A DNA stretch of 60,175 nucleotides from the NCBI GenBank assembly GCA_947649615.1, contig CANSSG010000016.1:1-60175 (forward strand), read 5' to 3'. The DNA comes from an uncultured Clostridia bacterium (GTDB taxonomy: Bacteria; Bacillota; Clostridia; Oscillospirales; Oscillospiraceae). This document shows positions 35,881 to 53,353 of this stretch, one piece after another. The notes under the pieces were generated by a model. It saw only the letters and a program-made list of their open reading frames with translations, was not told the DNA's origin and searched no databases. How positions within the stretch are numbered: position 1 is the stretch's first letter; the number at the start of each line of letters is the position of its first letter. The position numbers and the translations under genes were made by a program.

Positions 35881-37038
35881 TCACCCCTGTCCCGCAGCGA
35901 TTTTACCTATGGCTGCTGCCGCCGACGAAATCTCCTCAGAGGTGGTGTACCAGCCAGGGCTGAAGCGCACGGTGCCTTGCGGGAACGTACCCAGGGTTCT
36001 ATGGGCGGCAGGGGCGCAGTGCAGGCCGCAGCGGGTGAGGATGCCGAATTGCTGCTCCAGGCAGAACGCCGCTTCCGCATTGTCCTGCTCTAAAAAGTCT
36101 ATGGAAATCACGCCCGCGCGGTTTTCCAGCGACCACGGTCCCGCCAGCCGGATGTTGGGAATATCCCGCAGCTCCGCCAGGAATTGGCCGGCCAATTCTT
36201 CTTCCCGCCGCCGAAAGGCCTCAACGCCGGTTTCCAGAATAAACTCCACAGCGGCGTGAAAGCCGTAGATGCCCGGCAGATTCGGCGTACCGGACTCCAA
36301 ACTGTCCGGCATGTAGGCGGGCTGGCGTTCGGAATCCGATGCGCTGCCTGTGCCGCCGGTAATGAGCGGCGTCAGGCCCTTTGCAAATTCTGGCGACAAC
36401 AGCAGTGCGCCAATCCCAGAAGGACCCATCAGGCCCTTGTGTCCCGGCACCGACAGCGCCGATAGGCCCCAGCCTTCGAAATCTATGTCCCAATGCCCCG
36501 CCGTCTGGGCGGCGTCCAGCAGGAGGGGAATCCCACGCTCACGGCAGATTTTCCCAATTGCGGCTGCGTCTTGTATGCCACCGCCTACGTTGGAGCTGTG
36601 GGCTATTACTACCAGCCGCGTGTTGGGGCGGAGCAGCGGCAGAAGGTCTGCCGGGTCCAGATACCCCTCCCCATTGCAGGGAATGCGGTCAAAGGTTACC
36701 CCCTGGTCTGCCAGGCTGTGCAGCGGGCGCATGACGGCGTTGTGCTCCATGCTGCTGGTAATGCAGTGGTCTCCGGGCTTCAGCCAGCCCCGGAGCGCCA
36801 TATTCAGCCCCATCGTGTTGCCGCTGGTCAAAATGCAGTGGGTGGGGTCGCTGTGGTGGAACAGCTTGCACAGCCCTTCCCGCAGCAGCAGCGTAGTCAT
36901 GCCCGCGTCCTGTGCGCTGGCATAAACGCCGCGATTGATGGACGCTCCCACCTCTGTCAAATAGCGTGCCATGGAAGCGGCTACGGCAGGGGGCTTAGGA
37001 AAAGAAGTGGCGGCGTTATCTAGGTATATCTGGCTCAT
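35881..37038 (-). CDS. Selenium-associated aminotransferase class V / cysteine desulfurase-like protein
   Basis: A 385-residue PLP enzyme of the family modelled on E. faecalis EF2568 (TIGR01977), which tracks with YedE/YedF-type selenium genes. Signs are YLDNAATSFPKP at the start, the PLP lysine in VPGHKGLMGPSG, and the sulfur/selenium-carrying cysteine in LTRCGLHCAP. It may release selenium from selenocysteine or sulfur from cysteine for selenophosphate synthesis. It lies divergent from yedE-yedF-DUF3343. ATG at 37038 has GGAGA 7 bases upstream; a Met nine codons earlier is less likely. Confidence 0.9.
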   Translation of the reverse strand: MSQIYLDNAATSFPKPPAVAASMARYLTEVGASINRGVYASAQDAGMTTLLLREGLCKLFHHSDPTHCILTSGNTMGLNMALRGWLKPGDHCITSSMEHNAVMRPLHSLADQGVTFDRIPCNGEGYLDPADLLPLLRPNTRLVVIAHSSNVGGGIQDAAAIGKICRERGIPLLLDAAQTAGHWDIDFEGWGLSALSVPGHKGLMGPSGIGALLLSPEFAKGLTPLITGGTGSASDSERQPAYMPDSLESGTPNLPGIYGFHAAVEFILETGVEAFRRREEELAGQFLAELRDIPNIRLAGPWSLENRAGVISIDFLEQDNAEAAFCLEQQFGILTRCGLHCAPAAHRTLGTFPQGTVRFSPGWYTTSEEISSAAAAIGKIAAGQG

Positions 37039-37345
37039 ATCGCTGTCTCCTATAGAAGTATTCAATCAGTAAAAGCCATTGCAATCCAAATCACAATAGG
37101 CTATTTCTGAAAGCATTTAGCGCAAAAGCCGCGCTTTTTCGCCTGTTTTTACAATTTTACTGTACCACAAAATTTTTCTTGATGCAACTGTTTTCTCGCC
37201 GGGAAGGCAAAAAGGAAATTCATCTTGCTTTTGGCAATGAAAAACGATATATTGGGTGTCAGGATAGGGCGATTTGCCCACATCCCCGTGGCCGTCATTA
37301 GAGCCGCGCCAGAATTTTTCGGAGAATCGAGAGGAGAAAACATTT
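37039..37345. promoter_or_regulatory. Divergent control region of the desulfurase-like gene and yedE
   Basis: 307 bases without a gene. Leftward promoter: TTGCAT (37187-37182), 17-base spacer, TACAGT (37164-37159). Rightward promoter: TTGCTT (37225-37230), 17-base spacer, TATATT (37248-37253). A small stem GGGC-gattt-GCCC lies at about 37267-37279 in the yedE leader. Confidence 0.6.
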
Positions 37346-38443
37346 ATGCCAAAAGAAAGCTTTATCAAGCGCTATGGCCTGCTCATTGGGACAGGCCTGG
37401 TGGTGGGAGCGGCGGCGGTGCTGCTGACAGCCCTGGGCAATCCGGCCAACATGGGCTTCTGCATCGCCTGCTTCCTGCGGGACATCGCCGGAGCCTTGAA
37501 CTTCCAGCGGGCCGGATTTGACGCCGAGGCCGGCACCGGCATCGTCCAGTACATCCGCCCTGAGATTATCGGCCTGGTGCTGGGGTCCACCGCGATTGCC
37601 TTCGCCAAGAAGGAATTTCGCCCCAAAGGGGGTTCTTCCCCTATGATCCGCTTCATCGTGGCGGTTTTCGTCATGATTGGCGCGCTGGTGTTCCTGGGCT
37701 GCCCCCTGCGCATGGTTATCCGTATCGGCGGCGGCGACCTGAACGCGGTTGTCGGCCTGGTGGGCTTCGCCCTGGGTATTCTCCTTGGCATCGCGTTCCT
37801 GAAGAAGGGCTTCAGCCTGCGCCGTGCGTATCAGCAGTCCATGGCGGAGGGCCTGATTTTCCCGGTCCTGATGGTGGGACTGCTGGTTCTGCTGATGATG
37901 CGTCCGGACTTCATCATTTTCAGTGCCAAAGGCCCCGGCTCCATGGCGGCTCCCGTCCTGGCCGCCCTGCTGGTTGCCGTGATTGTGGGCATTCTGGCCC
38001 AGCGTTCCCGCCTGTGCATGGTGGGCGGCATCCGTGACGCGGTGATGTTCAAGGATTTCCGTCTGATTTCCGCCTTCATCGCCATCATTGTGGCGGTGCT
38101 TATCGGCAATCTGGCCCTGAGCAAGTTCAGTCTGGGCTTCGTTGATCAGCCCATCGCCCATTCCGAAGCCACCTGGAACCTGATGGGCATGGTCCTGGTA
38201 GGCTGGGGTTCCGTCCTGCTGGGCGGCTGCCCCCTGCGCCAATTGATCCTGGCCGGTGAGGGCAATACCGACTCTGCCGTCACCGTTACCGGCTACATCG
38301 TCGGCGCGGCGGTGTCCCATAACTTCGGCCTGGCCTCTTCCGCTACCGGCATCGGCACTGGCCCTGTCGCTATTGCGGTTGTGGTTGGCTTTGTGGTTCT
38401 GGCAGTTATTTCCTTGATGAATATGCAGAAATTGGAGGGTTAA
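37346..38443 (+). CDS. yedE: YedE-type putative selenium transporter
   Basis: A 365-residue membrane protein with about nine to ten hydrophobic segments, YeeE/YedE fold. The conserved thiol motifs are GFCIACFLRD (near 31-40), GCPLRM (near 121), RLCMVGGIRDA and a second GCPLRQ, as expected for sulfur/selenium-ion carriers. With the 67-residue YedF and the DUF3343 protein directly downstream it fits the selenium-specific branch (TIGR04112). Transport of a selenium species is inferred from this context. The ATG at 37346 has GAGGAGA upstream. Confidence 0.9.
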   Translation: MPKESFIKRYGLLIGTGLVVGAAAVLLTALGNPANMGFCIACFLRDIAGALNFQRAGFDAEAGTGIVQYIRPEIIGLVLGSTAIAFAKKEFRPKGGSSPMIRFIVAVFVMIGALVFLGCPLRMVIRIGGGDLNAVVGLVGFALGILLGIAFLKKGFSLRRAYQQSMAEGLIFPVLMVGLLVLLMMRPDFIIFSAKGPGSMAAPVLAALLVAVIVGILAQRSRLCMVGGIRDAVMFKDFRLISAFIAIIVAVLIGNLALSKFSLGFVDQPIAHSEATWNLMGMVLVGWGSVLLGGCPLRQLILAGEGNTDSAVTVTGYIVGAAVSHNFGLASSATGIGTGPVAIAVVVGFVVLAVISLMNMQKLEG

Positions 38444-38447
38444 TGGT

Positions 38448-38651
38448 ATGATTGATGCGCGTGGATATTCCTGCCCCACCCCTGTGGTGATGGTGCAGAA
38501 GGCCGTCAAGGACGGCGGACCCTCCAAGCTGGAGGTGGCTGTAGACAACCAGTGCTCCGTAGAGAATGTGACCCGGTTCGCCCGGAACGCCGGTTATCAG
38601 GTGAAGGTAGTGGATTTCGAGGGCGATTTTAAGCTGCTGCTGTCAAAGTAA
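38448..38651 (+). CDS. yedF: YedF/TusA-like sulfurtransferase (selenium delivery)
   Basis: A 67-residue protein of the SirA/TusA/YedF fold. The active cysteine sits in RGYSCPTPVVMVQKA, followed by the helix and the C-terminal strands. It likely accepts a persulfide or perselenide group on that cysteine. Four bases separate it from yedE, and the start of the DUF3343 gene shares its last base. Full-length YedF proteins are about 200 residues; this is the single-domain form. Confidence 0.88.
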   Translation: MIDARGYSCPTPVVMVQKAVKDGGPSKLEVAVDNQCSVENVTRFARNAGYQVKVVDFEGDFKLLLSK

Positions 38652-38896
38652 TGGAACAGTATGTGGCTACCTTTCACACCCACCTGGCGGCGCTGCGGAG
38701 CTGCAACGCGCTGAAAAAGGCCGGGGTCGATGGCGCCTGCCTGGCGCCTGTCCCCCGGCGGCTGAGTTCTTCCTGCGGCACCTGTGTTTTCTATGGCGCA
38801 GAGGACGCCATGCTTGCCTGCATGGACGCCGACCTGGAAGCGGTCTACCGGCGGGAGGAGGCTTCGTTTGCCTTGGTACACCAGGGGGACGATTGA
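38651..38896 (+). CDS. DUF3343 protein (putative Se/S carrier)
   Basis: An 81-residue protein of the DUF3343 family, often called putative Se/S carrier-like. Cysteines C18, C30, C42, C45 and C57 are visible; CGTCVFYG (from 42) is the likely reactive site. It overlaps yedF by one base and ends before a strong terminator. Co-occurrence with YedE and YedF implies a selenium relay. No biochemical role is proven. Confidence 0.85.
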   Translation: MEQYVATFHTHLAALRSCNALKKAGVDGACLAPVPRRLSSSCGTCVFYGAEDAMLACMDADLEAVYRREEASFALVHQGDD

Positions 38897-38919
38897 CAGC
38901 GGAAAACGAACATAGCTTA

Positions 38920-38954: not shown

Positions 38955-38980
38955 GTTCGCCTGCCTGCATACGCAGGGAA

Positions 38981-39274
38981 TCAGCCTAAACGAACCTCCT
39001 GGGCTTCCTCCGGAAGGAAGCAGCCCTTCATGTCATACTTGTTGTAGCCGCTATAATCAGAAAGCGCACGGCCTTGCAGGAAATAACTGCGGATAAACCG
39101 CTTGCCGTCTACACAGGTCCAGTTCTCCTGGTCCCAGCTCAGGTAGCCGTCCTCATCCGTGCGTTTTTCCGCGAAAATCAGGTCTACCTGGCGGTTATGG
39201 TTGGCGACCAGGTCTATTAGCTGCTCTACTGTCAGGTCAAGGTCTGCCTTGTTGACAATATCAATGACTTTCAT
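38981..39274 (-). CDS. 97-residue protein of unknown function ending the grd operon
   Basis: I do not recognise this family. It begins MKVIDIVNKADLDLTVEQLI, is acidic with many aromatics (WDQENW, YSGYNKYD), has two cysteines (C54, C85) and no signal or membrane segment. It starts 12 bases after grdD on the same strand, so it is the ninth gene of the glycine reductase operon, and ends near the convergent selenium genes' terminator. The ribosome site (GGCAGG) is weak. Position suggests a role tied to the reductase or acetyl phosphate use; no function can be assigned. Confidence 0.75.
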   Translation of the reverse strand: MKVIDIVNKADLDLTVEQLIDLVANHNRQVDLIFAEKRTDEDGYLSWDQENWTCVDGKRFIRSYFLQGRALSDYSGYNKYDMKGCFLPEEAQEVRLG

Positions 39275-39286
39275 CCTGCCGCCCCC

Positions 39287-40435
39287 TTATCCGATATATC
39301 CGGCGGCTTTCAGGATTTCCTGGGCCTTGGCGTGGTTCGCTTCGCTCATCATCACCAGCGGGCCGGTGCAGCCCATCCCAGTCTCCGCGTAGATTCCAGC
39401 CTTCCAGAGGGCCTTGGCGGCGTCCTCCAGATCCATCACCTCAATGCCGGGGATGCTGGCGGTACATGGCTCGGCGGGAGGGGCCTTGACCTCTTCCTCA
39501 CCGGCGGGCTTGGCAGCGGACTTGCGGTCTGCCAGTATCTTGCTCAGCCCCGCCTTCTCTGCGGCGGCGAACTCCTGGGCGGCAATGGCAAAGACCTTGC
39601 CCCGCACCAGCTGGGCGGCAAACTCCAGGGCGTTGGCTACCAGGGGCGCGCCGCTGGCCCGGGAGACGATCAGCACCAGCTTGTCATAGCCGGGGCCAAT
39701 GCCCGGGCCATAGCCGTATCCGGCGGACTCAAAGCTGCCGCCAGTGGTGTAGGCGGAGAGCATCTTCACCAGCACGTTTCCGGTGAGACTGTCGCACACC
39801 AGGACGTCGGGGGTGCCTTGCAGTACGTCGTTGCCGCGAAGCACCGCACCGCCGTCGGAACGGGCGGATTCCGCCCAGCGGAAAGCGTAGCCGTTCTTTT
39901 GCAGTTGGTTCAGCGCCATCTCTGTTTGCCGCGCACCGTCTACATTCAGGATGCCCACCGTGGGATCCTGTACGCCGCAGGCTTTGGCCGTGATGATGCC
40001 GTACACCGCGTTTTTGATCATCCCCTCAATCCGGTCCGCGCTGGCGGTGCCGGTAGAGGTGGCAATGAACATCTCTTTTCCCTTGGCGGGTGTGACAACG
40101 CGGCCTACGGTGGACACGCCGATGGAGAAGGGGAAGTGCATGGTGACGGCGCCGTCTACCTCGCCGGTTTCCACCATCTGCTCCATCTTTTTGTGGCCCT
40201 CGTCCTCGCTGCCTACATGGACGGTGGTGACCCCTTCCGCTTCCAGGGTGCCGATATAGCGCACGTCTACCCCGCGGCGGGCGGCGGCTACGGCGGCGGC
40301 CATAGCGTTCTCCTCGCCGTGCTCACTGCCCATGCCGGTCAGGGCAATCCGGGGCTTGGGTCCGAAAGACCCGGTTTCCAGGCCCTCCGCCATTTCCAGA
40401 AACGCCTTGGCAATGGTTTTTTCCAGATTACTCAT
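39287..40435 (-). CDS. grdD: Glycine reductase complex protein C, alpha subunit
   Basis: The 382-residue GrdD works with GrdC to release acetyl phosphate from the Se-carboxymethyl group of GrdA. Motifs include IALTGMGSEHGEENAM, a PlsX/phosphotransacetylase-like DSLTGNVLVKMLSAYTTGGSF and a C-terminal TGMGCTGPLVMMSE with a conserved cysteine. Start ATG 40435 has GGGAGG 7 bases before it; an ATG two codons earlier touches the site. Follows grdC by 15 bases. Confidence 0.96.
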   Translation of the reverse strand: MSNLEKTIAKAFLEMAEGLETGSFGPKPRIALTGMGSEHGEENAMAAAVAAARRGVDVRYIGTLEAEGVTTVHVGSEDEGHKKMEQMVETGEVDGAVTMHFPFSIGVSTVGRVVTPAKGKEMFIATSTGTASADRIEGMIKNAVYGIITAKACGVQDPTVGILNVDGARQTEMALNQLQKNGYAFRWAESARSDGGAVLRGNDVLQGTPDVLVCDSLTGNVLVKMLSAYTTGGSFESAGYGYGPGIGPGYDKLVLIVSRASGAPLVANALEFAAQLVRGKVFAIAAQEFAAAEKAGLSKILADRKSAAKPAGEEEVKAPPAEPCTASIPGIEVMDLEDAAKALWKAGIYAETGMGCTGPLVMMSEANHAKAQEILKAAGYIG

Positions 40436-40450
40436 AGCCATCCTCCCGCC

Positions 40451-41995
40451 TTATTCGGCCTGGGCCAGCAGTGTGGCGGCAAAGTCCTTCATGGCCTTGG
40501 CAATCATGCCCTTCACCTCGTCCTCGCTGACCCCGGCTTCCGCTTTCTCCGCGCCGGTGTTGGCCTGGATGACAAAGGATACGCCGTCAAAGAGGTTGGT
40601 CATGCGGCCCAGGAACAGGGAGCCTTTGCCGATGATCATAACCCGGTTCAGCTTCCCGGCCATGATGTCGTTGCGGGCAAACCCGATATAGGGTACGCCG
40701 GAGGGGATATGGCCCTGGGTAGGCGCCCAGCCGGTGAGGCCGTGCTTTACCGGGAAGGTGGCCAGGTCCGTCTTTTGCAGCTCGCCCCGCTTCACCGCCA
40801 GGGCGGCAATCATTTTATAGTTGGACAGCGGCACGTCGCCTGCGCCGGCGGGCTTGGTGATATCCGGGTTCTGCATTTCCGGGGAATATTTGTCGATGTC
40901 CGTGATCTTCAGGCCGTGCTTGTCCAGGGGATTGGTCACCAGGCTGGAGATAACCGCCTGAGGCGCGGAGCCGGTGCCTACTGTGTGGCGGCCCAGCATA
41001 TCCAGGTTAACCTCCGGGCTTACGCCGTCGTCCTGGGTCAGCACTACCGCGAAACCGCCAACCATGTCCTCCATGATGGGCAGGCCCTTCTTCACATGGT
41101 CCTTGCCGTTCATGCCCAGCTTGGCGGTGCAGCCGCCGGCGGTAACCACGACGGTCTTGTACGCGCCGGATGCCACCAGGGCGGCGGCTTCAATCATGGC
41201 GTGGGCAGGCGCCGCGCAGAAGCCACGGGCGTCGGAGCCGGTGGCGTTGGCAAGGCCGGCGATCTCCGCAGCGGACTTGGCGAAGTTGCCGCCGCCCCGC
41301 TGGTTCATGTCGCCGCAGGCTTCCTCGGCGCAGTCCACCACGTATTCTACGTCTTCCTTGGCGATGCCCGCGTTCTTCACGGCGGACAGCAGCGCCATCA
41401 CGGAGCTGGCTTTGCTCACCAGGTTCTCATGCATGACGTGGGCGGAGAGGTTCACGTCGATATCGTGGGCGCGGTTGACGCAGCCAACCAGCGCACCGTT
41501 GTGGTAAAGGCCCTCAGAGTGCTCCTCATTGACCAGACGGGCAATCTCTTCCCCGGCAGTCTGGGCCTCGGGAATCCGGGCCAGGATGGTTTCATCCATG
41601 ATGGGGTTGGCTGCCAAGGCAGCACGGTGGGCGTCGGCAAAGCCCTGCTCCAGCTTCACCAGGCCGAACACATCGCAGGCCTGCATCAGCAGCAGGAACT
41701 CTTCCTGGGGCATCATCTGCCCGAAGGGGCCGAAACGGTCTGAAACATCGCAGGCCTTGTCGCACCAGGGCTGGGCCACTTCCGCCAGCTCGTCAGGGTG
41801 CTTATTGCCGATATAGACCTGGTTGGGCCAATAGGAGAGGGCCTGGTCAAAGCTGCGGATATGGCTGGGCAGCTCCTTGAGATACTCGCTCTCCGGGTTC
41901 ACAATGCGCTCTGTGGTCTGCGTGGTCCCGTTGTGCAGGACCATGTCGGGGGTATGCACCAGGATGTACCCGGCGCCCTTGATAACGCTTTTCAT
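40451..41995 (-). CDS. grdC: Glycine reductase complex protein C, beta subunit
   Basis: The 514-residue GrdC is a ketoacyl-synthase-III-like protein that forms an acetyl-thioester from the selenoprotein A intermediate. Visible are the typical start (SVIKGAGYILVHTPDMVLHNGTTQTTER), an active-site cysteine in RGFCAAPAHAMIEAA, and SGAYKTVVVTAGGCTAKLGM. The ATG at 41995 is preferred over a GTG three codons earlier that is crowded by the AAAGG site. Between grdA and grdC lies a strong terminator, so expression may be lower than that of grdA. Confidence 0.96.
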   Translation of the reverse strand: MKSVIKGAGYILVHTPDMVLHNGTTQTTERIVNPESEYLKELPSHIRSFDQALSYWPNQVYIGNKHPDELAEVAQPWCDKACDVSDRFGPFGQMMPQEEFLLLMQACDVFGLVKLEQGFADAHRAALAANPIMDETILARIPEAQTAGEEIARLVNEEHSEGLYHNGALVGCVNRAHDIDVNLSAHVMHENLVSKASSVMALLSAVKNAGIAKEDVEYVVDCAEEACGDMNQRGGGNFAKSAAEIAGLANATGSDARGFCAAPAHAMIEAAALVASGAYKTVVVTAGGCTAKLGMNGKDHVKKGLPIMEDMVGGFAVVLTQDDGVSPEVNLDMLGRHTVGTGSAPQAVISSLVTNPLDKHGLKITDIDKYSPEMQNPDITKPAGAGDVPLSNYKMIAALAVKRGELQKTDLATFPVKHGLTGWAPTQGHIPSGVPYIGFARNDIMAGKLNRVMIIGKGSLFLGRMTNLFDGVSFVIQANTGAEKAEAGVSEDEVKGMIAKAMKDFAATLLAQAE

Positions 41996-42121: not shown

Positions 42122-42153
42122 AAAAAAGGGCGGCGGCTAACCAGCCGCCGCCC
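42122..42153 (-). terminator. Strong terminator between grdA and grdC
   Basis: Minus strand: perfect 10-bp GC stem GGGCGGCGGC / GCCGCCGCCC around TGGTTA, followed by TTTTTTG. It lies 13 bases after the grdA stop, inside the grd operon. Confidence 0.9.
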
Positions 42154-42166
42154 TTACCTGCGTCGA

Positions 42167-42643
42167 TCAGCCCAGGTACTTGCAGTGTTCATCGCGAATG
42201 GCGCTCATCTCATTGATGATGTCATCCACATCCAGAACCATCTCCATCATGGAGACCTGCTCGTCATAGACGGCGTCGTCAAACTCCGCCTTCACTTCGG
42301 GCTCGCACACATGGTAAACCGTGAGTCCCAACGAGACTCCTGTCAACGGACCGGCATAAGTGGGGTCACCGGCGGTCACTGTCTCAGCGGCCAGGCCGGA
42401 GGCTTCGCCCTCAGCAGCGCCCAGGAGAACAACAATGTTCTCGGGGCCGTACTGCTCAGCGAACTCCTTGACTCTCTTCTGATTTTCCAGATCCATTGCA
42501 CCAGCGGCCGTTCAGACGAAGCACTCCGTGGAGGAAAACACCACTTCGGCACCAGCAGACTGGGCGCAGGCCTCAATAGCCATGCCGGGAATGCCGTCGC
42601 GGTCACCAATGATGATGACCTTCTTGCCAGCTAAGATGCTCAT
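42167..42643 (-). CDS. grdA: Glycine reductase selenoprotein A (UGA = selenocysteine 44)
   Basis: The 158-residue small selenoprotein common to all glycine, sarcosine and betaine reductases. Its selenol takes the carboxymethyl group from protein B and passes it to protein C. An in-frame UGA at 42514-42512 falls in CFV[14 protein letters not shown], the invariant active site with the C41...Sec44 pair. Reading through gives exactly family length, with no other stop until 42167. Starts at ATG 42643 behind AGAAGGAGGT, a near-perfect ribosome site fitting high expression. The stretch after the UGA can form a SECIS-type hairpin. An automated caller would truncate it to a 109-residue piece starting at 42496. 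Confidence 0.97.
42475..42514 (-). promoter_or_regulatory. grdA UGA codon and predicted SECIS
   Basis: The UGA is followed by a weak hairpin in the next 30 bases, CCGC-TGGT-GC with a bulge before GG, exposing GGU in its loop. GGU loops are the feature read by SelB. The stem is short and the exact fold uncertain. Confidence 0.6.
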
Positions 42644-42707: not shown

Positions 42708-43025
42708 TTAGGCGTACTTCTTGATCATGGCCTCTACGTTCTCGGGGGTGGCGTCCTCCTTGACGCAGGAGTCGATCATCTCGCCGTTCTCGTAGATAGC
42801 GATGACGGGCAGGCCCAGAATTTTCTGGCTGATGGCCAGGCGGCGGGCCTTGGTGGTGTTCAGGGCGCAGAACTTGATTTTCTCGCCGTAGGTCTCCGCA
42901 AAGGCGTGGACATGGGGCATAAGGGCCGCGCAGGGAATGCAGCCATCGCCGTAAAAGTCCACCAGCACCTTGCCCTCGGCCTTGAGGACCTCGGCCTCAA
43001 AGGTTGTTTTATCCAGCTCAAGCAT
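42708..43025 (-). CDS. trxA: Thioredoxin of the glycine reductase system
   Basis: A 105-residue thioredoxin with the unusual active site GCIPC (near 26-30) in place of WCGPC, a substitution typical of thioredoxins in glycine reductase clusters. It reduces the mixed selenide-sulfide of GrdA after each cycle. The cis-proline is in GLPVIAIY. ATG at 43025 lies 8 bases after TAGGAGG. It sits between trxB and grdA. Confidence 0.95.
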   Translation of the reverse strand: MLELDKTTFEAEVLKAEGKVLVDFYGDGCIPCAALMPHVHAFAETYGEKIKFCALNTTKARRLAISQKILGLPVIAIYENGEMIDSCVKEDATPENVEAMIKKYA

Positions 43026-43082
43026 GGTCATGGCCTCCTATTGTGTAAGATGAGAACATTATATCTCATTTTCAGTCAAAAA

Positions 43083-44021
43083 TCAATGGTTGCTGACATA
43101 ATGCTCCGCCTGCATGGCGGCAATCGCGCCGTCCGCAGCGGCGGTGACCACCTGGCGCAGGCTCTTGACACGGATGTCCCCTGCGGCGAATACGCCGGGG
43201 ATGTTGGTGTGCATGTTGTCATCCGTCTTGATATAGCCGTTCTCCATCTCCAGCATGCCCTCGAAGAGCTTGGAGTTGGGGTTATACCCGATGAAGCCGA
43301 ACAGGCCGAACAGGCCGTCCTCCTCGTCCGCTTCCACCGTGGTCAGTTCGCCGGTCTTTACGTTTTTCACCGTCATGGAATTGAGCAGGTCGTCGCCGTC
43401 TACACGGACTACCACGCTGTCCCACATGAAAGCGATCTTGGGATTGGCGAAAGCCTTCTCCTGAATGGACTTAGCCGCCCGCAGCTCGTCCCGGCGGTGG
43501 ATAATGGTCACCTTCCGGGCAAACTTGGTCAGGTACATGGCCTCCTCCACCGCGCTGTCGCCGCCGCCCACCACGTAGACCTCGAAGTCCTCGAAGAACG
43601 CCGCGTCGCAGGTAGCGCAGAAGGAAATGCCCTTGCCGGTAAACTTGCCTTCGTTCTCGCAGCCAATGGGCTTGGGGAATGCGCCGGTGGCGATAATGAC
43701 GCACTTGGCCAGGTATTCGCCCTTGGTACCCACCAGCTTCTTGACCTCGCCTTCCAGTTCCACGCTCTTGATGGCGTCCGTGCAGCGCTCCGCGCCGAAC
43801 TTCTTGGCCTGCTCGGTCATGCGGGCGATCAGGCTGGGTCCGCTCTCGCCCTCCACCATCTGGCCGGGATAGTTCTCAATCTCGTCCGTAATGGCGATCT
43901 GGCCGCCATCCTGCCCCTTTTCGATAATAAGGGTGCTCAGGCGGCTGCGTCCGGCGTAAAGGCCGGCCGTCAGGCCGGCGGGGCCGCCGCCCAAAATGAT
44001 TACATCATAAATCTTGCTCAT
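43083..44021 (-). CDS. trxB: Thioredoxin reductase
   Basis: A 312-residue FAD/NADPH flavoprotein. FAD motif GGGPAGLTAGLYAGR (about 11-25), redox pair CATC (near 135), NADPH motif GGGDSAVEEA and C-terminal GVFAAGDIR. It passes electrons from NADPH to the neighbouring TrxA and so to selenoprotein A. Same gene order as in other grd operons. ATG at 44021 follows AGGAGC. Confidence 0.96.
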   Translation of the reverse strand: MSKIYDVIILGGGPAGLTAGLYAGRSRLSTLIIEKGQDGGQIAITDEIENYPGQMVEGESGPSLIARMTEQAKKFGAERCTDAIKSVELEGEVKKLVGTKGEYLAKCVIIATGAFPKPIGCENEGKFTGKGISFCATCDAAFFEDFEVYVVGGGDSAVEEAMYLTKFARKVTIIHRRDELRAAKSIQEKAFANPKIAFMWDSVVVRVDGDDLLNSMTVKNVKTGELTTVEADEEDGLFGLFGFIGYNPNSKLFEGMLEMENGYIKTDDNMHTNIPGVFAAGDIRVKSLRQVVTAAADGAIAAMQAEHYVSNH

Positions 44022-44051
44022 AGCTTTTATAAGCTCCTGTATTCAGGAAGT

Positions 44052-44081
44052 CCGGGGCGGAGCCGGACGGCCCCGCCCCGG
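44052..44081. repeat. Intercistronic GC hairpin between grdB and trxB
   Basis: CCGGGGCGG pairs with CCGCCCCGG around a 12-base loop. No T-run, so a role in mRNA stability is more likely than termination. Confidence 0.55.
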
Positions 44082-44096
44082 CGGAATCGCCTGGAA

Positions 44097-45432: not shown

Positions 45433-46731
45433 TCAGCGGGCGCTCAGGCGGTTGAAGCCCATCTCGTTGGTAGCGCCGGTGATGACCTGCAATTCCGCCT
45501 CGATGGTGCCGTCAGGCCGCAGGGACCCGGCATGGCCGCCTGCAATGACGTCCACATAGTCCAGGGTGCCGATGACCTTGTCCATTTTCGGCAGAATGAT
45601 AACCTCGTTGGCGTTGCCACCGGTGACCACGGCGTCCGCCAGGGGGTCGGCGTCCGCCAGGGATTGGCTCTTGCCGTCCTGGCCGGCGTACTCGTCGGTA
45701 ATGATGACGGTCTTGACGCCTTGCAGTTCGATCTTCTTGCAGTTCATGATGAGGTCGGTATCCGGGTTGCCGAAGCCTTCCTGGCTCACCAGAGCGCCGT
45801 CCAGGTCCAGCAGGCGGCACAGCTTGGCGGTCCAGTCGGAGGAACGCTGCTTGTCGGCCAGATACACGTTCTCGTTGGTGATGATATTGCAGACGTAGTT
45901 GAGGGTCTTGCCATGGGCCGCGAACAGGTTGGCCACCACGGGGTTGTTCTGATGGTGGTAGGTCGTGTTCTTATCACAGGCGGACACGCAGTTGCCGCTG
46001 ATGATGGCGCCGTCCATGGTTTCGGTGGGGCAGAGAATGGTGGTCAGGCTCCGCTTGGCGTCCACGCCGTAGACGTAGGTGTCATGGAGCAAGCCCTGGC
46101 TTTGCAGCATGTGGACGTAAGCCACGCGGGGCAGGTTGGGCAGCTTCTCAAGCCCCTCCTTGATGCCGTAGGTCTCGAACTCGGCGGTCTCATCGGGGGT
46201 AACGCTGCGGCCCAGCTCGCCGATATAGGTGGCGGCCCGGAGACCCGCGATGCGCACCGCATGCTCATACTCGTGCTTGTGGTCCTGATAGCCCTCATTT
46301 GGCTCCGCCACGACCACCAGGTTGTTCAGCTTGGAGAACGGGGTATACTCCGCGCCGGGTCCGGACATGTCGATGATGCCCTCCTGGAAGCCCACAATCT
46401 TACCGGCGGTGACCACGGCCATGCCGCGCAGGACGTGGGTCTTGCCGCTGCCGACGGTCTCCACCTTGCTGATGACGCCGGGGAACACGCCGCCGGGTCC
46501 TTCCACCTTTACCCGCGGCTCGATGACGTCCTTAACGGGGGTGATCCGGACGCTCTCGCCGGGCTTGGCGATGTCGAAGCCGAAATCCTTGACCCACGCC
46601 TTGACGTCGTCATCCTCATATAAATAGGCTTTGACGGCGTCGGGGTCAACATACAGGGTACCGTTGTCTACCTTGCATTCCTTTGAAAACTGGATGTCTT
46701 TAATCTGGATGTAGCCCAGTTCCAATTTCAA
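45433..46731 (-). CDS. grdE: Glycine reductase protein B, alpha/beta proprotein (pyruvoyl-forming)
   Basis: A 432-residue precursor that is cut at a cysteine to give two subunits, the new N-terminus becoming the pyruvoyl group that binds glycine as a Schiff base. The processing site is in SGN-CVSACDKNTTYHH, Cys 248 with this start. MKLELGYIQIKDIQF matches the family N-terminus when TTG at 46731 is the start, ten bases after GGAGG; a GTG three codons earlier (46740) is almost in contact with that site. Precedes grdB by 31 bases. Confidence 0.95.
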   Translation of the reverse strand: MKLELGYIQIKDIQFSKECKVDNGTLYVDPDAVKAYLYEDDDVKAWVKDFGFDIAKPGESVRITPVKDVIEPRVKVEGPGGVFPGVISKVETVGSGKTHVLRGMAVVTAGKIVGFQEGIIDMSGPGAEYTPFSKLNNLVVVAEPNEGYQDHKHEYEHAVRIAGLRAATYIGELGRSVTPDETAEFETYGIKEGLEKLPNLPRVAYVHMLQSQGLLHDTYVYGVDAKRSLTTILCPTETMDGAIISGNCVSACDKNTTYHHQNNPVVANLFAAHGKTLNYVCNIITNENVYLADKQRSSDWTAKLCRLLDLDGALVSQEGFGNPDTDLIMNCKKIELQGVKTVIITDEYAGQDGKSQSLADADPLADAVVTGGNANEVIILPKMDKVIGTLDYVDVIAGGHAGSLRPDGTIEAELQVITGATNEMGFNRLSAR

Positions 46732-46757: not shown

Positions 46758-47177
46758 TTATTTACTAAGACCCGCCTGGGCGTCAAAACCGATGGCGCCG
46801 GCCAGCAGGGTATAGTCAATGAGTTGAAAGTCCTCCAGCACGGACGGACCAAGGGAACGCTGCAATGGCTTGAATTTGTCGAACACGGCGATGGCGTTGG
46901 CGATCATCTCCCCATGCTGGGCGTCGAAGCCGTGCGGCTCCATGGAGACCACCAGGGATTTATAGGGCGTCTCATTGGGCTTGACGCTGCCGGCCAGGGG
47001 GTGGGTATAGAGGATATGCCCTGCGTAAACCATGTCCCGGGCTTCCACCAGAATCTCCCGAAAACTCCGCTCCGGCTGGAAGCGGATGGTATAAAGGCCC
47101 CGCCCCTCCATGCAGGTGGGTACCAGGGGGTTATTCGTGAGGATCAGAAAATCCCGGGGATTATATGCAGTAGCCAT
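46758..47177 (-). CDS. grdX: GrdX protein
   Basis: A 139-residue protein matching GrdX, first gene of many glycine reductase operons, with no proven role. Motifs are DFLILTNNPLV, an FREILVEARDMVYAGH stretch and the GHILYTHPLAGSVKPNETPYKS core. ATG at 47177 follows GGGAGG; it comes directly after the glycine riboswitch. Confidence 0.92.
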   Translation of the reverse strand: MATAYNPRDFLILTNNPLVPTCMEGRGLYTIRFQPERSFREILVEARDMVYAGHILYTHPLAGSVKPNETPYKSLVVSMEPHGFDAQHGEMIANAIAVFDKFKPLQRSLGPSVLEDFQLIDYTLLAGAIGFDAQAGLSK

Positions 47178-47218: not shown

Positions 47219-47425
47219 AGAGCAAGGCGCTGCAAATCCTGCTGCCTTGCTCTGTTTTCAGCCTGAGAGATTCTTCGGGGGTTCCCCGAATTGCTCCGTC
47301 GGCGCTTACGCTCTCCAGAGTGTTGTCAGTCCTCAGTCTGTTTGCCTGAGATCTTCACGGCAGGCTTGGCATGTCCACGCGCTTATTCCTTCGGCCCCGC
47401 TAAAGCGGATCTCCTGAGGACTTCA
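47219..47425 (-). promoter_or_regulatory. Tandem glycine riboswitch with terminator, grd operon leader
   Basis: Two glycine aptamers in series on the minus strand. The first (47421-47341) has GGAGATC, GCCGAAGGA and closing GATCTCAGGC. The second (47325-47259) has GGAGAGCG, GCGCCGACGGAGCAA and closing CTCTCAGGC. A 10-pair stem AGAGCAAGGC / GCCTTGCTCT (47253-47219) followed by TTTATTTT lies directly after it, acting as expression platform. By analogy with gcvT leaders glycine should switch transcription on. It controls grdX and the entire operon. Confidence 0.93.
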
Positions 47426-47566
47426 TCCAACAATATTCATAAATCCTGGGGCTGAAAACAGCCTCGCTTCGGTATATAGTCTACATGTATGCTTGGATTT
47501 TTACAAGAAAAAAAGCAAAATATACGGATATACAATAGCTGCCCTATTATCGAAAATATCAATAAA

Positions 47567-48493
47567 TCACCGGTTAAGGCCTCTGCCCTTGCTGTAGAAC
47601 CCGGAAGCGTACTCATAAAACGCCTGGGCCACGGGGGAAAGGATGCTGTTTTTATGCCGGACCAGGTAGAGCTTCCGCCGCAGCTTCACACTGTCAAAGT
47701 TAAACGCCAGAAGCTTCTTGAACTTGCAGTAGTCCTCACAGGCGCTCTGGGAGATGACCGCGATGCCCAGGCCCTCGCTGACCATCTGCTTGATGCTCTC
47801 AGGGGAGCGGACCTCCACGGCGGTGCGGATGGCGGCTACGTCTACCCCCATCTCCCGCAGGAAATTTTCCGTCTCCAGCCGGGTGCCGCTGCCCGGCTCG
47901 CGGCTGATGAACGGTTCCCTGGTAAGCTGCCCCGTGGGAAAGCCGGTGGCCTGGTAGCCCTGGTATTTCGGCGTATTGGGGGTGATGACCACCAGCCGGT
48001 CCTCCGCAAAGGGCTGGTAGACGCACTTGGGCAGATTGACCACCGTGCCGGTAAAGCCGATCTCCACCTTCCTGGCCGCAATCTGGTTGGCAACCTCGGT
48101 GCTGTCCAAAAGCTGCAAGCTAAAACTGACGTCCGGATACTCCGCCCGGAAGCCCTGGATAAGCTTGGGCAGAAAATACTGTCCGGGAATGGTGGATGCG
48201 GCGACATGGATGGAGCCTTGCATATCGTGGGTAAAGGCGTGGAGCGCCTGGACGGCCCGTTCCCGCAATTGCAGGATCTCCTTGGCGTATCCGTAGAGTA
48301 TCTTCCCCGCATCGGAGGGATAGACCTCCTTCGTAGTCCGTACCAGCAGCTTGATGCCCAGCTTCCGCTCCAGGACAGCCACATGGGTGCTGACAGTGGG
48401 CTGGGTCAGGTATAAGCTTTTGGCGGCGCGGGAAAAACTGCCCTGGTCCACCACAGCAACAAAGGCTTCCAATTCCTTGATATCAATATCCAT
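47567..48493 (-). CDS. Selenium-metabolism-associated LysR regulator
   Basis: A 308-residue LysR-type regulator: winged helix-turn-helix at 5-60 (FSRAAKSLYLTQPTVSTHVAVLERKLG), then a CysB-like effector domain with SREPGSGTR near 200 and a C-terminal LYLVRHKNSILSP. LysR proteins of this type accompany selenium genes in Clostridia. It is on the same strand as the grd operon, just upstream of the riboswitch, and after tRNA-Sec, so it may regulate grd or sel genes. Effector unknown; sulfur or selenium compound is a guess from CysB likeness. Confidence 0.87.
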   Translation of the reverse strand: MDIDIKELEAFVAVVDQGSFSRAAKSLYLTQPTVSTHVAVLERKLGIKLLVRTTKEVYPSDAGKILYGYAKEILQLRERAVQALHAFTHDMQGSIHVAASTIPGQYFLPKLIQGFRAEYPDVSFSLQLLDSTEVANQIAARKVEIGFTGTVVNLPKCVYQPFAEDRLVVITPNTPKYQGYQATGFPTGQLTREPFISREPGSGTRLETENFLREMGVDVAAIRTAVEVRSPESIKQMVSEGLGIAVISQSACEDYCKFKKLLAFNFDSVKLRRKLYLVRHKNSILSPVAQAFYEYASGFYSKGRGLNR

Positions 48494-48522
48494 GCTCGCC
48501 CCTCCCTACTGCGCCGCGCAAA

Positions 48523-48562: not shown

Positions 48563-48659
48563 TGGCGGGAATATGTGGGAATCGAACCCACCTAAGGAGC
48601 TTTTCACCCCTATCACTGGTTTTGAAGACCAGGGGGCACACCAGCACCCGTCTACTCCC
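48563..48659 (-). tRNA. selC: tRNA-Sec (anticodon UCA)
   Basis: A 97-base tRNA. Acceptor GGGAGTA pairs with TATTCCC, followed by discriminator G and an encoded CCA. The anticodon arm CTGGT-CTTCAAA-ACCAG gives UCA. The long variable arm (TAGGGGTGAAAAGCTCCTTA) and T-arm GTGGG-TTCGATT-CCCAC fit a selenocysteine tRNA. It reads the UGA codons in grdA and grdB, and lies 51 bases after selB. Confidence 0.97.
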
Positions 48660-48710: not shown

Positions 48711-50663
48711 TTACGGATTGATTTTTTCTATAGCGTAAGATGCCGCCAGCCCCGAAAACGCAGGGCCGGGGCGGCGGACGTCGCCCTCTTTCTTCAGCAC
48801 CTTGTTCTTATCCCAATACTCCAACAGAGCCAAGGCGTATTTGCGGGAAGTACCCAATTGGTCGCGGAACGCCGCCAAGGTCAGTTCCTCCTGCCTGCCG
48901 AAGTGTTCCGCCAGACGGCGGGAAACCTCCTCATACACCGCCCGGTGGACGCATATCTGGGGCGTGAGCATCACCAGCCCGCCGCCGGATACCAGGCTCT
49001 CCACCACCTGCTTGCAGTCGGCCTGCTCGTTGGCGGAGAACAGACCGGAAATTTCGTCCAGCCCCGGCGTTTCCAGACCCGCCTTGCGGTAGGTTTGCAG
49101 CAGCTTGTCCCGAATGCCCTTCTGCCGCTTGGTCAGCTGGACGGTGAAGCCCGCCAGGGCGTACCGGTCTGCCACGCTTTGCAGCTTCCCCTCCCGTACC
49201 AGGGCCGCAAGCATGGCGTCCGCCACCGGCTGGTCCGTATTTTTGAATAGCTTCTGCCGCAGCTCCGCCGCCTTCATGCCCGCATGAAGGGGGTTTTGCT
49301 GATGGTATTTCCCCAGCAGGCCCCGGCAGGTTTCCCAAATCTCATCGAATACGCCGCCGGCCAGGTACCGCCCCGGCAGCGGCTCCAGCACTTCCCCGGC
49401 GGCGCACAGCGCCGCCAGTTCTCCTTCCAGCTCCGGCGCCTCCCGGTTCAGCGCCGCCGCAATTTTCGCCAGGGTGGGCAGCGTATGCCCCTCCCGGGCC
49501 ACCGCCTGTAGCAAACGCTGGCCCCCGGAGCCGCTCTCGCGGATGGCCAAGGCGTCCAGCGTCCGCTGGTCTCCCCTTCTGTGCCGGACCGGGCAGTCGT
49601 CCAAGACCACCCCGCCGCCGATCGTCTCCAGCGGGGAGTAAAAGCGCACCACGAACCGGTCGCCGCATTTGACCGCCAGATCCTCGGTCATCCGAAGCTG
49701 TGCAAAACAGTTCCCGCCCGGCTGCAAGGCATCCCGGTCCAGCAGCACCACCTTGCAAAGGCGCACGGACGAGCCGTGGTAGAGATGGAGCTGGGACCCG
49801 GAAAGGATGGTCCGCTGGGAGCTTTTCAGGTTTTGCAGCTTCACGTCCAGCATCAGGGACTTGCGTACGGACCCCGGCTTCGCGATGGTGTCTCCCCGGG
49901 CCAAGTCAGACTTCTTCGTCCCGGCCAGATTGACCGCTACCCGCTGCCCGGCGTAGGCGGCGGCCACATCCTTTCCGTGTACCTGCAAATTCCGGACGCG
50001 GGCCTGGAAGCCCGTCGGCAGCACTTCCGCCATATCTCCCGCCGCCAGAGAACCTTCAATCAGTGTGCCGGTGACGACGGTGCCGAATCCCTCCACGGAG
50101 AACACACGGTCGATGGGCAGGCGGAAAGGGACCCGCAGATTCTTTTCCGCCGCCTGCCGTACCAGCTCCCGCAGGTTTTGCCGCAGCTCCGCGACGCCCT
50201 CGCCGGTCCGGGCGGAAACGGTGTGGATGGGCTTTCCCTCCAGGAAGGTGCCAGCCGTCTGGGCCTTCACATCCTCGCGGACCATTTCCACCCAATCCGG
50301 GTCCACCATGTCGCACTTGGTCAGCACCACCAGGCCATCCCGGATGCCCAGCAGCGAGAGGATGCCCAGATGTTCCACCGTCTGGGGCATAAAGCCCTCG
50401 TCGGCAGCTACTACCAGCATGGCAAGGTCGATGCCGCCCGCTCCGGCCAGCATGTTTTTGATAAATTTTTCGTGTCCCGGCACGTCCACGATGCCCGCTT
50501 GGGTGCCGTCGTCGAAGTCCAGGTGGGCAAACCCCAGTTCGATGGTGATGCCCCGCTTCTTCTCCTCCGTCAGGCGGTCTGTGTCAATGCCGGTCAAGGC
50601 CTTGACCAGCAGGGTCTTGCCGTGGTCTACATGGCCCGCCGTGCCGATGATCACATGCTTCAC
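48711..50663 (-). CDS. selB: Selenocysteine-specific elongation factor SelB
   Basis: A 650-residue GTPase that brings Sec-tRNA to UGA codons bearing a SECIS. G-motifs are GHVDHGKT (10-17), DVPGHEKF and TKCD; domains 2 and 3 follow ([15 protein letters not shown]). The C-terminal part (about 370-650) has the winged-helix repeats that bind SECIS RNA, including the [19 protein letters not shown] terminal wing. ATG overlaps the selA stop by four bases. Confidence 0.97.
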
Positions 50664-52039
50664 GAGAGCACCTCCCTTACCGCCGTCTCAATGTATGCAA
50701 AATCCTCAACCCGCAGTGTACGCACGTCCAGCAGGTAGCGCCCCTGGCTGATCCGGCCGATAATGGGGCGCTCGCGCCGCCGCAGGGCGCTCTCCAACGC
50801 GTCTGCCGTCAGCTTCCCCGGCTCCACAGCCACCGCCCAGGACGGGAGCGTCTGGGCCGGGCAGCTTCCGCCCCCCACCTGGCTTTCCGTCTCCACCACT
50901 TGGGCGGCGCAGCCCTGGCCCATGAGCTGCTGGCACAGCAGCGCCGCCTTGCTGTGGAGCATGTGCGGCGGTTCGCCGAGCATGGACAGCACCGGGATTT
51001 CCTTCCGGGCGCGGGCCGGGTCCAGATAGGCGTATAAGGTTTCCCGCAGGGCGGCGATGGTCATTTTATCCACCCGCACCGCCCGGGCCAGCGGATGCTT
51101 CTTCAATTGGTCGATGTAAGCTTTTTTCCCCAGGATCAGTCCGGCCTGGGGTCCGCCCAGCAGCTTGTCGCCGCTGAAGGAAATCAGGTCCACGCCGGCC
51201 TTCACGCTCTGCTGCACGGTAGGCTCGTCATGGATGCCGAAAGCGTTTAAATCCGCCAGGGAGCCGCTGCCCAGGTCCTCAATCACCGGCAGGCCGTGCC
51301 TATGCCCCAACTCTACCAGCTCCGCCAGGGCGGGCCGCTCGGAAAATCCTACGATGCGGTAGTTGCTGGTATGGACCCGCAGCAGGGCCTTGGTTTCCGG
51401 GCCGATAGCGTTTTCGTAGTCGTACAGGTGGGTTTTGTTGGTGGTCCCCACCTCCCGCAGGGCGCAGCCGCACTGGGTCATGATATCCGGAATGCGGAAG
51501 GAACCGCCGATCTCCACCATTTCCCCCCGGGACGCGGCCACCTCGCCCCCCTTGCCGATGGCGCTGAGGATCAGCAGCACGGCGGCGGCGTTGTTGTTGA
51601 CGGCCATGGCCGCTTCCGCCCCCGTGGCCTGGGCAAGCAGCGTCTCGATATGGCTGTGCCGGGACCCCCGGCAGCCCTGCGCCACGTCGTATTCCAAGGT
51701 GGAGTATCCGCCCGCCACGGCGGCCACGGCTTCCACCGCCCTCTGGGACAGGCACGATCTGCCTAAGTTGGTGTGCAGCACCACGCCGGTGCCGTTAATG
51801 ACGGGGCGGAGGGAGGGCAGCGCCTCCCGTCTGGCCCTCTCCCCGGCCGCTGCGGCGATGGACGCCTTGTCCGGGAGCACATCCAATGCGCCGGAGAGGA
51901 CTTGGCCGCGCAGCGCCTCCAGATCCTCCCGCACGGCGGCGCGGATGCTCCCGGCGGGCAGGTCCAGCGCCAAGAGCGCAGGATGGTTCAGCAGCTCGTC
52001 CACCTTGGGGATATTGCGCAGGACGCTTTGTTTTTCCAT
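50660..52039 (-). CDS. selA: L-seryl-tRNA(Sec) selenium transferase
   Basis: A 459-residue PLP enzyme that converts Ser-tRNA-Sec to Sec-tRNA-Sec using selenophosphate from SelD. Visible are the N-terminal [23 protein letters not shown], and the PLP lysine in [15 protein letters not shown]. Decameric in known cases. First gene of a selA-selB-(tRNA-Sec) unit; promoter at 52124-52152. It is divergent from selD, so both are served from the 276-base gap. Confidence 0.97.
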
Positions 52040-52123
52040 GCAGTCACACTCCCAATTTCAAGACCGCCGCCCTATGGCGGGAAAGGCGTCAGGTCCTATT
52101 ATTTATTGCTCATTTTACAAAAT

Positions 52124-52152
52124 ATGTTACCATGACGCCACCTGGTTGTCAA
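52124..52152 (-). promoter_or_regulatory. Promoter of selA-selB
   Basis: TTGACA (52152-52147) and TAACAT (52129-52124), 17-base spacing on the minus strand. Confidence 0.7.
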
Positions 52153-52241
52153 GTTTCGGGATAGGATTTTCCGGCCGGGCGGCGGCACGGGGCAGGCGTT
52201 CCGGCATTTCGCAAATTGCAGAAAAGAAAATGCGATAATTG

Positions 52242-52270
52242 CTGACAGCGGGGAAATTATCTGTTATAAT
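52242..52270 (+). promoter_or_regulatory. Promoter of selD
   Basis: CTGACA (52242-52247), 17-base spacer, TATAAT (52265-52270); selD starts 46 bases later with GGAGG. Confidence 0.75.
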
Positions 52271-52315
52271 GAAGGCGTATATTTTGATGGAAGCTATCCC
52301 AAAAGGAGGAACGAT

Positions 52316-53353
52316 ATGGAAAACGAAGTGAAGCTGACAAAGCTTGCCAACTGCGCCGGCTGCGGCGCCAAGGTGGGGGCTGGGGTGCTGGCCCAGCTTT
52401 TGGAGGGCATCCAGGTTCACAGCGATCCCAACCTGCTGGTAGGATTTGACAAGAGCGACGACGCCTCGGTCTACAAAATCTCTGACGAGCTGGCCCTTGT
52501 GCAGACGGTGGATTTCTTCCCGCCCATTGCCGACGACCCTTACCTGTTCGGCCAGATCGCCGCGACCAACGCCCTCAGCGACGTCTACGCCATGGGCGGC
52601 GAGCCGAAGCTGGCGCTGAACCTGATGTGCGTCCCCAAGGACATGCCCTCGGAGGCCGTCCACCAAATGCTGCGGGGCGGCTACGACAAGGTATATGAAG
52701 CGGGCTGCCTGATTACCGGCGGCCACAGCATCTTTGACAGCGAACCCAAATACGGCCTGGCGGTGACCGGTTTTGTCCATCCGGATCATATCCTGACCAA
52801 CAGCGGGGCCAGGGAAGGCGACGTGTTGATTCTGACCAAGCCCCTGGGCATCGGCGTCCTCACAACCGCGTTTAAGGGCGGGCTGGCTTCCCAGGAGGGA
52901 ATGGAGCTGGCGTACCGGCTGATGACCACCCTGAACAAAAGCGCGCGTGACGTCCTGGTGAAATACCGGGTTCACGCCTGCACGGACGTTACGGGCTTCT
53001 CCCTGCTGGGCCACCTGCTGGAAATGGCCCAGGGCAGCGATGTGCAGGCCGTGCTCCATGTAGACCAGATCGACCTGATCCCCGAGGCGCTGGAGATGGC
53101 TAAAATAGGCGTCCTGCCCGAGGGCATGTACCGCAACCGGACCTTTGCGGAGTCCTCTGTGGACATGGGCGATACGCCGCTGTATAAGCAGGACGTGCTC
53201 TTTGACCCCCAGACCGCCGGAGGGCTTCTGGCGTCGGTGCATCCCGAAGACGCGGACGCGCTCTTTGCGGAAATAAAGGCGTGTGTACCCAGCGCCCAGC
53301 GGATCGGGGAGGTTCGGTGCAGGCAAGATGGCGCAAGGATTCTCCTGCGGTGA
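52316..53353 (+). CDS. selD: Selenide, water dikinase (selenophosphate synthetase)
   Basis: A 345-residue enzyme that makes selenophosphate from ATP and selenide. C16 and K19 in AGCGAK align with catalytic Cys17/Lys20 of E. coli, so this is a cysteine form and not a selenoprotein. Other motifs are VGFDKSDDAS, VQTVDFFPP, NALSDVYAMGG and the C-terminal DPQTAGGLL. Divergently transcribed from selA, directly linking donor synthesis with tRNA loading. Confidence 0.97.
   Translation: MENEVKLTKLANCAGCGAKVGAGVLAQLLEGIQVHSDPNLLVGFDKSDDASVYKISDELALVQTVDFFPPIADDPYLFGQIAATNALSDVYAMGGEPKLALNLMCVPKDMPSEAVHQMLRGGYDKVYEAGCLITGGHSIFDSEPKYGLAVTGFVHPDHILTNSGAREGDVLILTKPLGIGVLTTAFKGGLASQEGMELAYRLMTTLNKSARDVLVKYRVHACTDVTGFSLLGHLLEMAQGSDVQAVLHVDQIDLIPEALEMAKIGVLPEGMYRNRTFAESSVDMGDTPLYKQDVLFDPQTAGGLLASVHPEDADALFAEIKACVPSAQRIGEVRCRQDGARILLR

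Follow-up and report, generated by a model that had tools for sequence, protein, structure and literature searches.

We describe a contiguous selenium block at positions 35881 to 53353 of a 60,175-base window, which is the whole of contig C16 in the 70-contig draft genome (2.65 Mb, 95.8% complete) of an uncultured Clostridia bacterium of the Oscillospiraceae, here called G000. The block is probably a complete selenocysteine (Sec) and glycine reductase locus that was built from three modules and whose SelD feeds both selenium systems of the organism. A sequence-only reading had placed genes for selenium supply, tRNA loading, decoding and selenoproteins together here, and all the genes it named were recovered by family models. 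The locus is a new example of an already known kind, in which Sec genes co-localise with a selenoenzyme. Added here are a riboswitch, a second selenium system that shares SelD, a modular make-up with remnants in relatives, and a tree conflict hinting at transfer.

Genes were identified with NCBIfam and Pfam profile models and RNAs with Rfam, with ARAGORN for tRNA (Table 1). From the end of the desulfurase-like gene at 35881 to the end of selD at 53353, the block contains the Sec-decoding set of SelA, SelB, SelD and the Sec tRNA (tRNA-Sec), together with all genes of the glycine reductase complex: GrdA and GrdB, both with UGA codons, the GrdE proprotein, GrdC and GrdD. Spacing is tight, with selA and selB overlapping by 4 nt, 51 nt between selB and tRNA-Sec, 69 nt between tRNA-Sec and lysR, and the largest gap, 389 nt, between lysR and grdX. 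Terminator-like hairpins numbered 22 in the region against 17.8 expected, and the one 3' of grdA is a pattern match only.

Table 1. Features of the selenium block in window coordinates, with the model scores that identify them.
Feature	Position	Strand	Evidence
Cysteine desulfurase / selenocysteine lyase-like pyridoxal phosphate enzyme	35881..37038	-	TIGR01977 392 bits (cut-off 377)
yedE, putative selenium transporter	37346..38443	+	TIGR04112 478 bits (cut-off 200)
TusA-like carrier (short 'YedF')	38448..38651	+	PF01206 63.9 bits
DUF3343 / Se_S_carrier	38651..38896	+	PF11823 42.3 bits (cut-off 25)
orf97, uncharacterised conserved protein, 3' end of grd genes	38981..39274	-	18-row alignment
grdD, component C alpha	39287..40441	-	NF040747 557.5 bits (cut-off 350)
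grdC, component C beta	40451..41995	-	NF040746 792.8 bits (cut-off 450)
Terminator-like hairpin 3' of grdA	42126..42155	-	13-pair stem + T run
grdA, selenoprotein A	42167..42643	-	NF040748 275.7 bits (cut-off 130)
trxA, grd type	42708..43025	-	NF047697 156 bits (cut-off 140)
trxB, thioredoxin reductase	43083..44021	-	TIGR01292 364 bits (cut-off 343)
grdB, selenoprotein B, glycine type	44097..45401	-	TIGR01917 692 bits (cut-off 602)
SECIS_4 (Sec insertion sequence, SECIS)	44320..44357	-	RF01990 60.5 bits, directly 3' of GrdB UGA
grdE, component B proprotein	45433..46731	-	PF09338 675 bits, full length
grdX	46758..47177	-	NF038093 98 bits (cut-off 40)
Glycine riboswitch, probably tandem	47248..47430	-	RF00504 + RF03166
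LysR regulator, selenium type (LysR_Sec_metab)	47567..48493	-	NF040786 349 bits (cut-off 250)
tRNA-Sec (selC), anticodon UCA	48563..48659	-	ARAGORN; RF01852 71.1 bits
selB	48711..50663	-	TIGR00475 374 bits (cut-off 242)
selA	50660..52039	-	TIGR00474 584 bits (cut-off 268)
selD, divergent from selA, without in-frame stop	52316..53353	+	TIGR00476 404 bits (cut-off 125)

In-frame TGA codons lie at codon 44 of grdA, within a CFVU motif (42514-42512), and at codon 348 of grdB (44360-44358). TGA occupies the Sec site of GrdA in 50 of 51 loci and that of GrdB in 82 of 83, counts that include the window and some contigs fetched twice. Counting the GrdB UGA as codon 1, the SECIS loop falls at codons 6 to 11, whose third positions are uniform at 0.82 to 1.00. 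Consensus folds 3' of both UGAs were no better than codon-column shuffles, which reached values as low in 25 of 100 cases for grdA and 27 of 100 for grdB; single-strand folds at these places were not unusual; and the grdA region gave no Rfam match. We identify the SECIS of GrdB by its match to RF01990 and treat that of GrdA as putative.

Two features of the grd operon had not been named in the sequence-only reading, a glycine riboswitch and orf97. In the leader between lysR and grdX, RF00504 scored 51.6 bits at 47324-47426 (gathering threshold 32), and the tandem glycine riboswitch model RF03166 matched from 47430 to 47248 with 68.3 bits (expect value, E, 3e-14), below its gathering threshold of 110. 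RF00504 was also found upstream of grdX in all six related loci scanned. The grd operon of Clostridioides difficile, with grdX, grdE/A/B/C/D and trxA/B, is likewise reported to stand behind a glycine riboswitch, but the available text of these accounts does not describe adjacent sel genes (PMC11477304, PMC10880999). The 97-residue product of orf97 has 22 invariant columns among 18 aligned sequences and a confident, beta-rich predicted structure (predicted local distance difference test score 94.6); the window copy had no Pfam or NCBIfam match and no clear structural relative. The gene closes the grd operon in this genus and its relatives, and two grd loci, L080 (titled Lachnospiraceae) and L083 (titled Faecalimonas), have it as well.

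From this gene content we infer a route for selenium through the block. YedE would import a selenium compound, and the desulfurase/Sec lyase-like enzyme, with the TusA-like and DUF3343 carriers, would pass selenium to SelD. SelD would supply selenophosphate, SelA would load tRNA-Sec, and SelB with a SECIS would read UGA 44 of GrdA and UGA 348 of GrdB. Together, GrdB/E, GrdA, GrdC/D and TrxA/B are predicted to reduce glycine to acetyl phosphate. Glycine may switch on the grd genes through the riboswitch, by analogy with C. difficile (PMC11477304), and the LysR regulator probably mediates the effect of selenium status. Selenium-specific roles of the supply proteins are less sure, and two model scores count against them. 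The protein previously read as YedF is a TusA-like protein of 67 residues that missed the two-domain YedF model TIGR03527 (53 bits, cut-off 110), covering residues 1-61 of its 194, that is, the TusA half without DsrE, and the desulfurase-like enzyme, a member of TIGR01977, scored 358.6 bits with the SclA model NF040779, under the cut-off of 525.

Selenium use in G000 is at least twofold. On contig C14, genes for YqeC and YqeB are adjacent, and the genome has four molybdenum hydroxylase matches, one of them a selenium-dependent xanthine dehydrogenase (TIGR03311, 1293.8 bits, cut-off 830), so that YqeB, YqeC, SelD and a selenium-dependent hydroxylase are all present. An earlier study proposed that TIGR03309 (yqeB), near orphan selD genes, marks this trait (PMC2276186), and poor growth on xanthine and uric acid is reported for selD and yqeB mutants of C. 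difficile (PMC11448449). Within a comparison set of 25 genomes of the genus (G-numbers denote genomes and L-numbers fetched loci), YqeB was found in 18, including all 8 with GrdB and ten without SelB over its cut-off. SelD adjoins YqeB in 12 of these 18 genomes (G152, G153, G154, G157, G159, G161, G162, G163, G167, G168, G170 and G171); it is not beside YqeB in G000, G122, G158, G164 and G169 and was not seen in G150. The order in G163 is yqeC-yqeB-selD-recombinase-ABC genes; in the counterpart on contig C14 of G000, selD is absent and yqeB is separated from the recombinase gene by about 180 bases, as against about 1,330 in G163. Because the hydroxylase genes are present and selD lies in the island, not at the yqeC-yqeB locus, SelD probably feeds both Sec and the labile-selenium cofactor, and the supply genes perhaps serve both systems too. 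The gene directly 3' of yqeB on C14 is tyrosine-recombinase-like (L119, 10946-12121), and such a gene also sits beside selD in G163 and G164.

For Sec itself, the evidence fits glycine reductase as the main or sole use in G000, since the 8 of 25 genomes with GrdB over cut-off are also the 8 with SelB over cut-off, G000 has a single GrdB-family match, and it has no PF00384 match, hence no formate dehydrogenase of that family, in a survey that did not extend to peroxiredoxin, SelW, HesB, UGSC and other selenoprotein families. No selenouridine synthase was over cut-off across the 25 genomes. The earlier suggestion of glycine reductase as the chief use of selenium can therefore be kept for Sec but not for selenium overall, given YqeB, YqeC and the selenium-dependent xanthine dehydrogenase, and the presence of a grd locus does not prove that glycine reductase is the only or chief selenium sink.

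Comparison within the genus suggested how the block may have been put together. In the seven other GrdB-positive genomes, the recovered stretches from selA to orf97 all have one order, and neither selD nor the yedE cluster is adjacent around GrdB on the recovered stretches, several of which end early. The exception is G164, in which another contig links orf97 to DUF3343-yedF-yedE-desulfurase as in the window. G158, which lacks a GrdB match and has no SelB passing the cut-off, keeps the desulfurase gene, trxB and selD in island order and orientation, matching window positions 35912-37026, 43069-44058 and 52240-53351 with about 20 and about 140 bases between them. G169 keeps trxB-lysR, matching 43091-44028 and 47601-48507, as well as pdaA-desulfurase-yedE-yedF-DUF3343 arranged as in the window. 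The arrangements in G158 and G169 look like decayed islands. Within the genus the complete joint was seen intact in G000 only, G164 showing half of it and G158 a remnant, with the contigs of several relatives too short to judge. G161 (75% complete) has orf97-grdD-grdC on two contigs and neither a GrdB match nor SelB over cut-off, so 8 of 25 is a lower bound for grd genes in the genus. In G168, an interspersed repeat of about 45-50 bp lies between grdA and grdC (L036, 12302-12355) and recurs at 91-98% in many genomes of the genus.

We propose that the island was formed by joining selD with two further modules, a sel-grd cassette that runs from selA to orf97 and a supply cluster that runs from the desulfurase gene to DUF3343. 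Among the 17 other genomes of the genus with YqeB, 12 have selD next to yqeB, where it would serve molybdenum hydroxylases.

Trees of the island genes and of rpoB placed G000 differently. A concatenated tree of selA, selB, lysR, grdX and grdE joined G000 and G164 at 100/100, and G000, G164 and G158 formed a clade in the SelD tree (97/99; bootstrap not fully settled and one outgroup row very long) and in the desulfurase tree (99/98). G164 is nearest to G000 for 9 of 14 island proteins (orf97, GrdD, GrdC, GrdB, GrdE, GrdX, LysR, SelA and SelD) and tied for best for the desulfurase. In an rpoB tree of 18 genomes, G000 instead grouped with G029, G151, G152, G153, G155 and G167, with G164 among the farthest, and rpoB rejected both G000+G164 (approximately unbiased test, p-AU 0.0083) and G000+G164+G158 (p-AU 0.0035). 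All six rpoB neighbours lack GrdB and SelB over cut-off; SelD is still next to YqeB in three (G152, G153 and G167), G151 has a SelD fragment at a contig start, and G029 and G155 have no SelD among the matches listed. YqeB identity to G000 was highest in G152 (83%) and lowest in G164 (71%) of nine compared.

On balance, these comparisons lean towards transfer within the genus. We tentatively suggest, at somewhat less than even confidence, a wider reading in which selenium use in the genus is modular and mobile. A G164-like relative would have given a hydroxylase-only lineage the sel-grd cassette, and perhaps supply genes and selD as well, leaving selD in the island and no longer beside yqeB; other species would have lost the cassette and kept selD, and the same island would have been built independently in other Oscillospiraceae and in Lachnospiraceae. 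A number of observations speak against transfer. For YedE, TusA, DUF3343 and SelB, G157 is nearer to G000 than G164 is, by 1 to 3 points; for YqeC, G164 is not far from G000 (63%, best 64%); and for the recombinase beside YqeB it is the best of four compared (71%). These six proteins fit the wider reading less well than the rest, which slightly lowers its odds. In addition, the species tree is drawn from one core marker, in which G164 fills 49% of the columns and both G164 and G000 have odd letter make-up, and binning errors in metagenome-assembled genomes (MAGs) could fake the conflict.

An alternative is that an ancestor within this part of the genus already had the full island and passed it on by vertical descent, so that loss alone explains its patchiness and rpoB or binning the conflict; this is a serious possibility that we nevertheless do not favour. 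Loss does occur, as the G158 (desulfurase-trxB-selD) and G169 (trxB-lysR) remnants indicate, G158 is the first branch of the G000-holding clade on the rpoB tree, and YqeC and the recombinase keep G164 not far from G000. Vertical inheritance must, however, account for six nearest relatives by rpoB that all lack GrdB and SelB over cut-off, three of them with SelD still beside YqeB, and for a genome that is closest for most island proteins yet among the most distant by rpoB and the most distant by YqeB.

Less likely still is that SelD and the supply genes mainly serve selenium-dependent molybdenum hydroxylases, their place beside glycine reductase being incidental. YqeB is indeed more widespread than SelB (18 against 8 of 25 genomes), SelD most often adjoins it, and YedE DNA matches occur in at least 16 of the 25 genomes, eight of which lack GrdB. 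All 8 GrdB-positive genomes, however, have a YedE match, and four YqeB-bearing genomes (G122, G158, G159 and G171) have none among the matches listed; supply genes also accompany Sec genes on a Pusillibacter plasmid and lie in several grd loci from other genera. The tie of YedE to either use of selenium is loose.

The sequence-only reading had further proposed that the contiguous block would be transferable. Tree conflicts and Sec packages on plasmids favour this indirectly, though the signals are mixed, but the block itself offers no sign of mobility, and we consider it very unlikely that the 17.5-kb block is one self-moving integrative element. No recombinase was found among 32 window proteins scanned (a subset of the window's open reading frames), no convincing flanking repeats were found at the block, and its composition is not odd (G+C 60.4% against 58.3% in the rest of the window). 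Such an element would fit the plasmid-borne counterparts of parts of the block and the outer neighbours of the cassette, which are common to G163, G162, G154 and G161 and have no counterpart in G150, G157, G164 and G168, so that four of the seven relatives with grd genes do not share them. Differing neighbours prove little, however, as the surroundings of the yedE cluster are poorly conserved across the genus too. Assembly or binning error as the source of the contiguity is extremely improbable, even for a window that is exactly one contig of a 70-contig draft, because both critical joints recur (orf97-DUF3343 in G164 and the collinear desulfurase-trxB-selD remnant in G158) and comparable full blocks were found in other genera.

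Beyond the 3' side of selD lie an 18-nt perfect inverted repeat (53390-53430) and a segment some 65 bases long (53429-53496), recurring at 82-88% at seven listed other places in G000 and in relatives, like a small interspersed element. The second gene past selD (54565-55485) encodes an HNH endonuclease domain protein (PF01844).

Comparable gene sets have been found on plasmids. Of 72,556 plasmid records, 22 gave a GrdE-like match; among the 20 listed, 12 have the annotation prdA. The 21-kb plasmids of Terrisporobacter are reported to bear prd genes with selA, selB, selD and tRNA-Sec (PMC10564238), and pTG1 (NZ_CP117524) resembles the island in joining selA, selB, selD, tRNA-Sec, a desulfurase, DUF3343, LysR_Se and its own selenoenzyme on one small replicon; its enzyme, however, is D-proline reductase, on a plasmid. 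Pusillibacter faecalis pMM59_01 (L201, NZ_AP023421.1, 19532-51418), a 504-kb plasmid typed as conjugative and listed under Oscillospiraceae, carries desulfurase-yedE-TusA-DUF3343-selA-selB-tRNA-Sec-selD-LysR in about 9 kb, but the stretch examined has no grd genes. In a 4.8-kb faecal scaffold deposited as 'Bacteriophage sp.' (L202, MT838886.1), we found the end of selB, tRNA-Sec, grdX, grdE (87% identical), grdB and trxB; it is probably bacterial DNA in a virome record.

Published work describes related co-localisation. Lin 2015 (PMC5322559) reported one or two small regions that unite Sec-decoding genes with Sec lyase, SirA-like, YedE, DUF3343 and LysR_Se genes, naming Coprococcus comes, Lachnospiraceae 1_4_56FAA and Slackia, and proposed recent transfer. 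The available text of that study describes neither a full glycine reductase operon with a riboswitch in such a region nor a shift of selD between a selenium-dependent molybdenum hydroxylase locus and the island. Transfer units of selABC and fdhA (PMC1794560) are also alike in that Sec machinery moves with one selenoprotein gene, but they concern formate dehydrogenase in Proteobacteria, and supply genes are not mentioned in the text available.

In the wider family, a tRNA-Sec match above 53 bits was found in 28 of 150 sampled genomes by our reading, the curated cut-off being passed by 47, many of which look like other long-armed tRNAs. GrdB-family proteins were over cut-off in 10 of the 150, all within these 28 (one, in G005, partial and barely over); the other 18 have no GrdB match, so across the family as a whole Sec is not used chiefly by glycine reductase. 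Only 2 of 27 fetched family loci, many of them short, have grd genes at the tRNA-Sec spot.

Complete islands do recur in other genera, in different orders, yet they are not the rule. Named grdE loci were the best 80 of 587 confirmed, and 35 of these reach 20 kb. Among the 35, three (L051, L083 and L090) contain selA, selB, selD, yedE, a desulfurase gene and five grd genes together, and seven have selA, selB and yedE with grd genes, whereas 20 have none of the tested sel or supply genes.

One locus outside the family departed from the usual Sec codon. In L081 (JAUNNF010000009.1, a MAG titled Coriobacteriia bacterium), which also holds selA, selB and yedE, TAG replaces TGA at the Sec codon of both grdB (5945-5947) and grdA (match 10319-10789), and SECIS_4 was matched right 3' of the grdB TAG (E 4.5e-11). 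As a stop, TAG also terminates the grdE frame and, in the grdD position, a frame of 395 codons. This looks like UAG-encoded Sec, which is known from Geodermatophilaceae (PMC5330540); among the titles listed in literature searches there was no case in glycine reductase. No tRNA was found on the 14.9 kb examined, so that a CUA tRNA-Sec is only hypothetical there.

If selenium use in this genus is modular and mobile as suggested above, gain and loss of Sec would be traceable among close relatives through intact, half-joined and decayed forms of one island. A shared SelD would then link the Sec and labile-selenium traits, and which of the two the supply genes follow would become testable.

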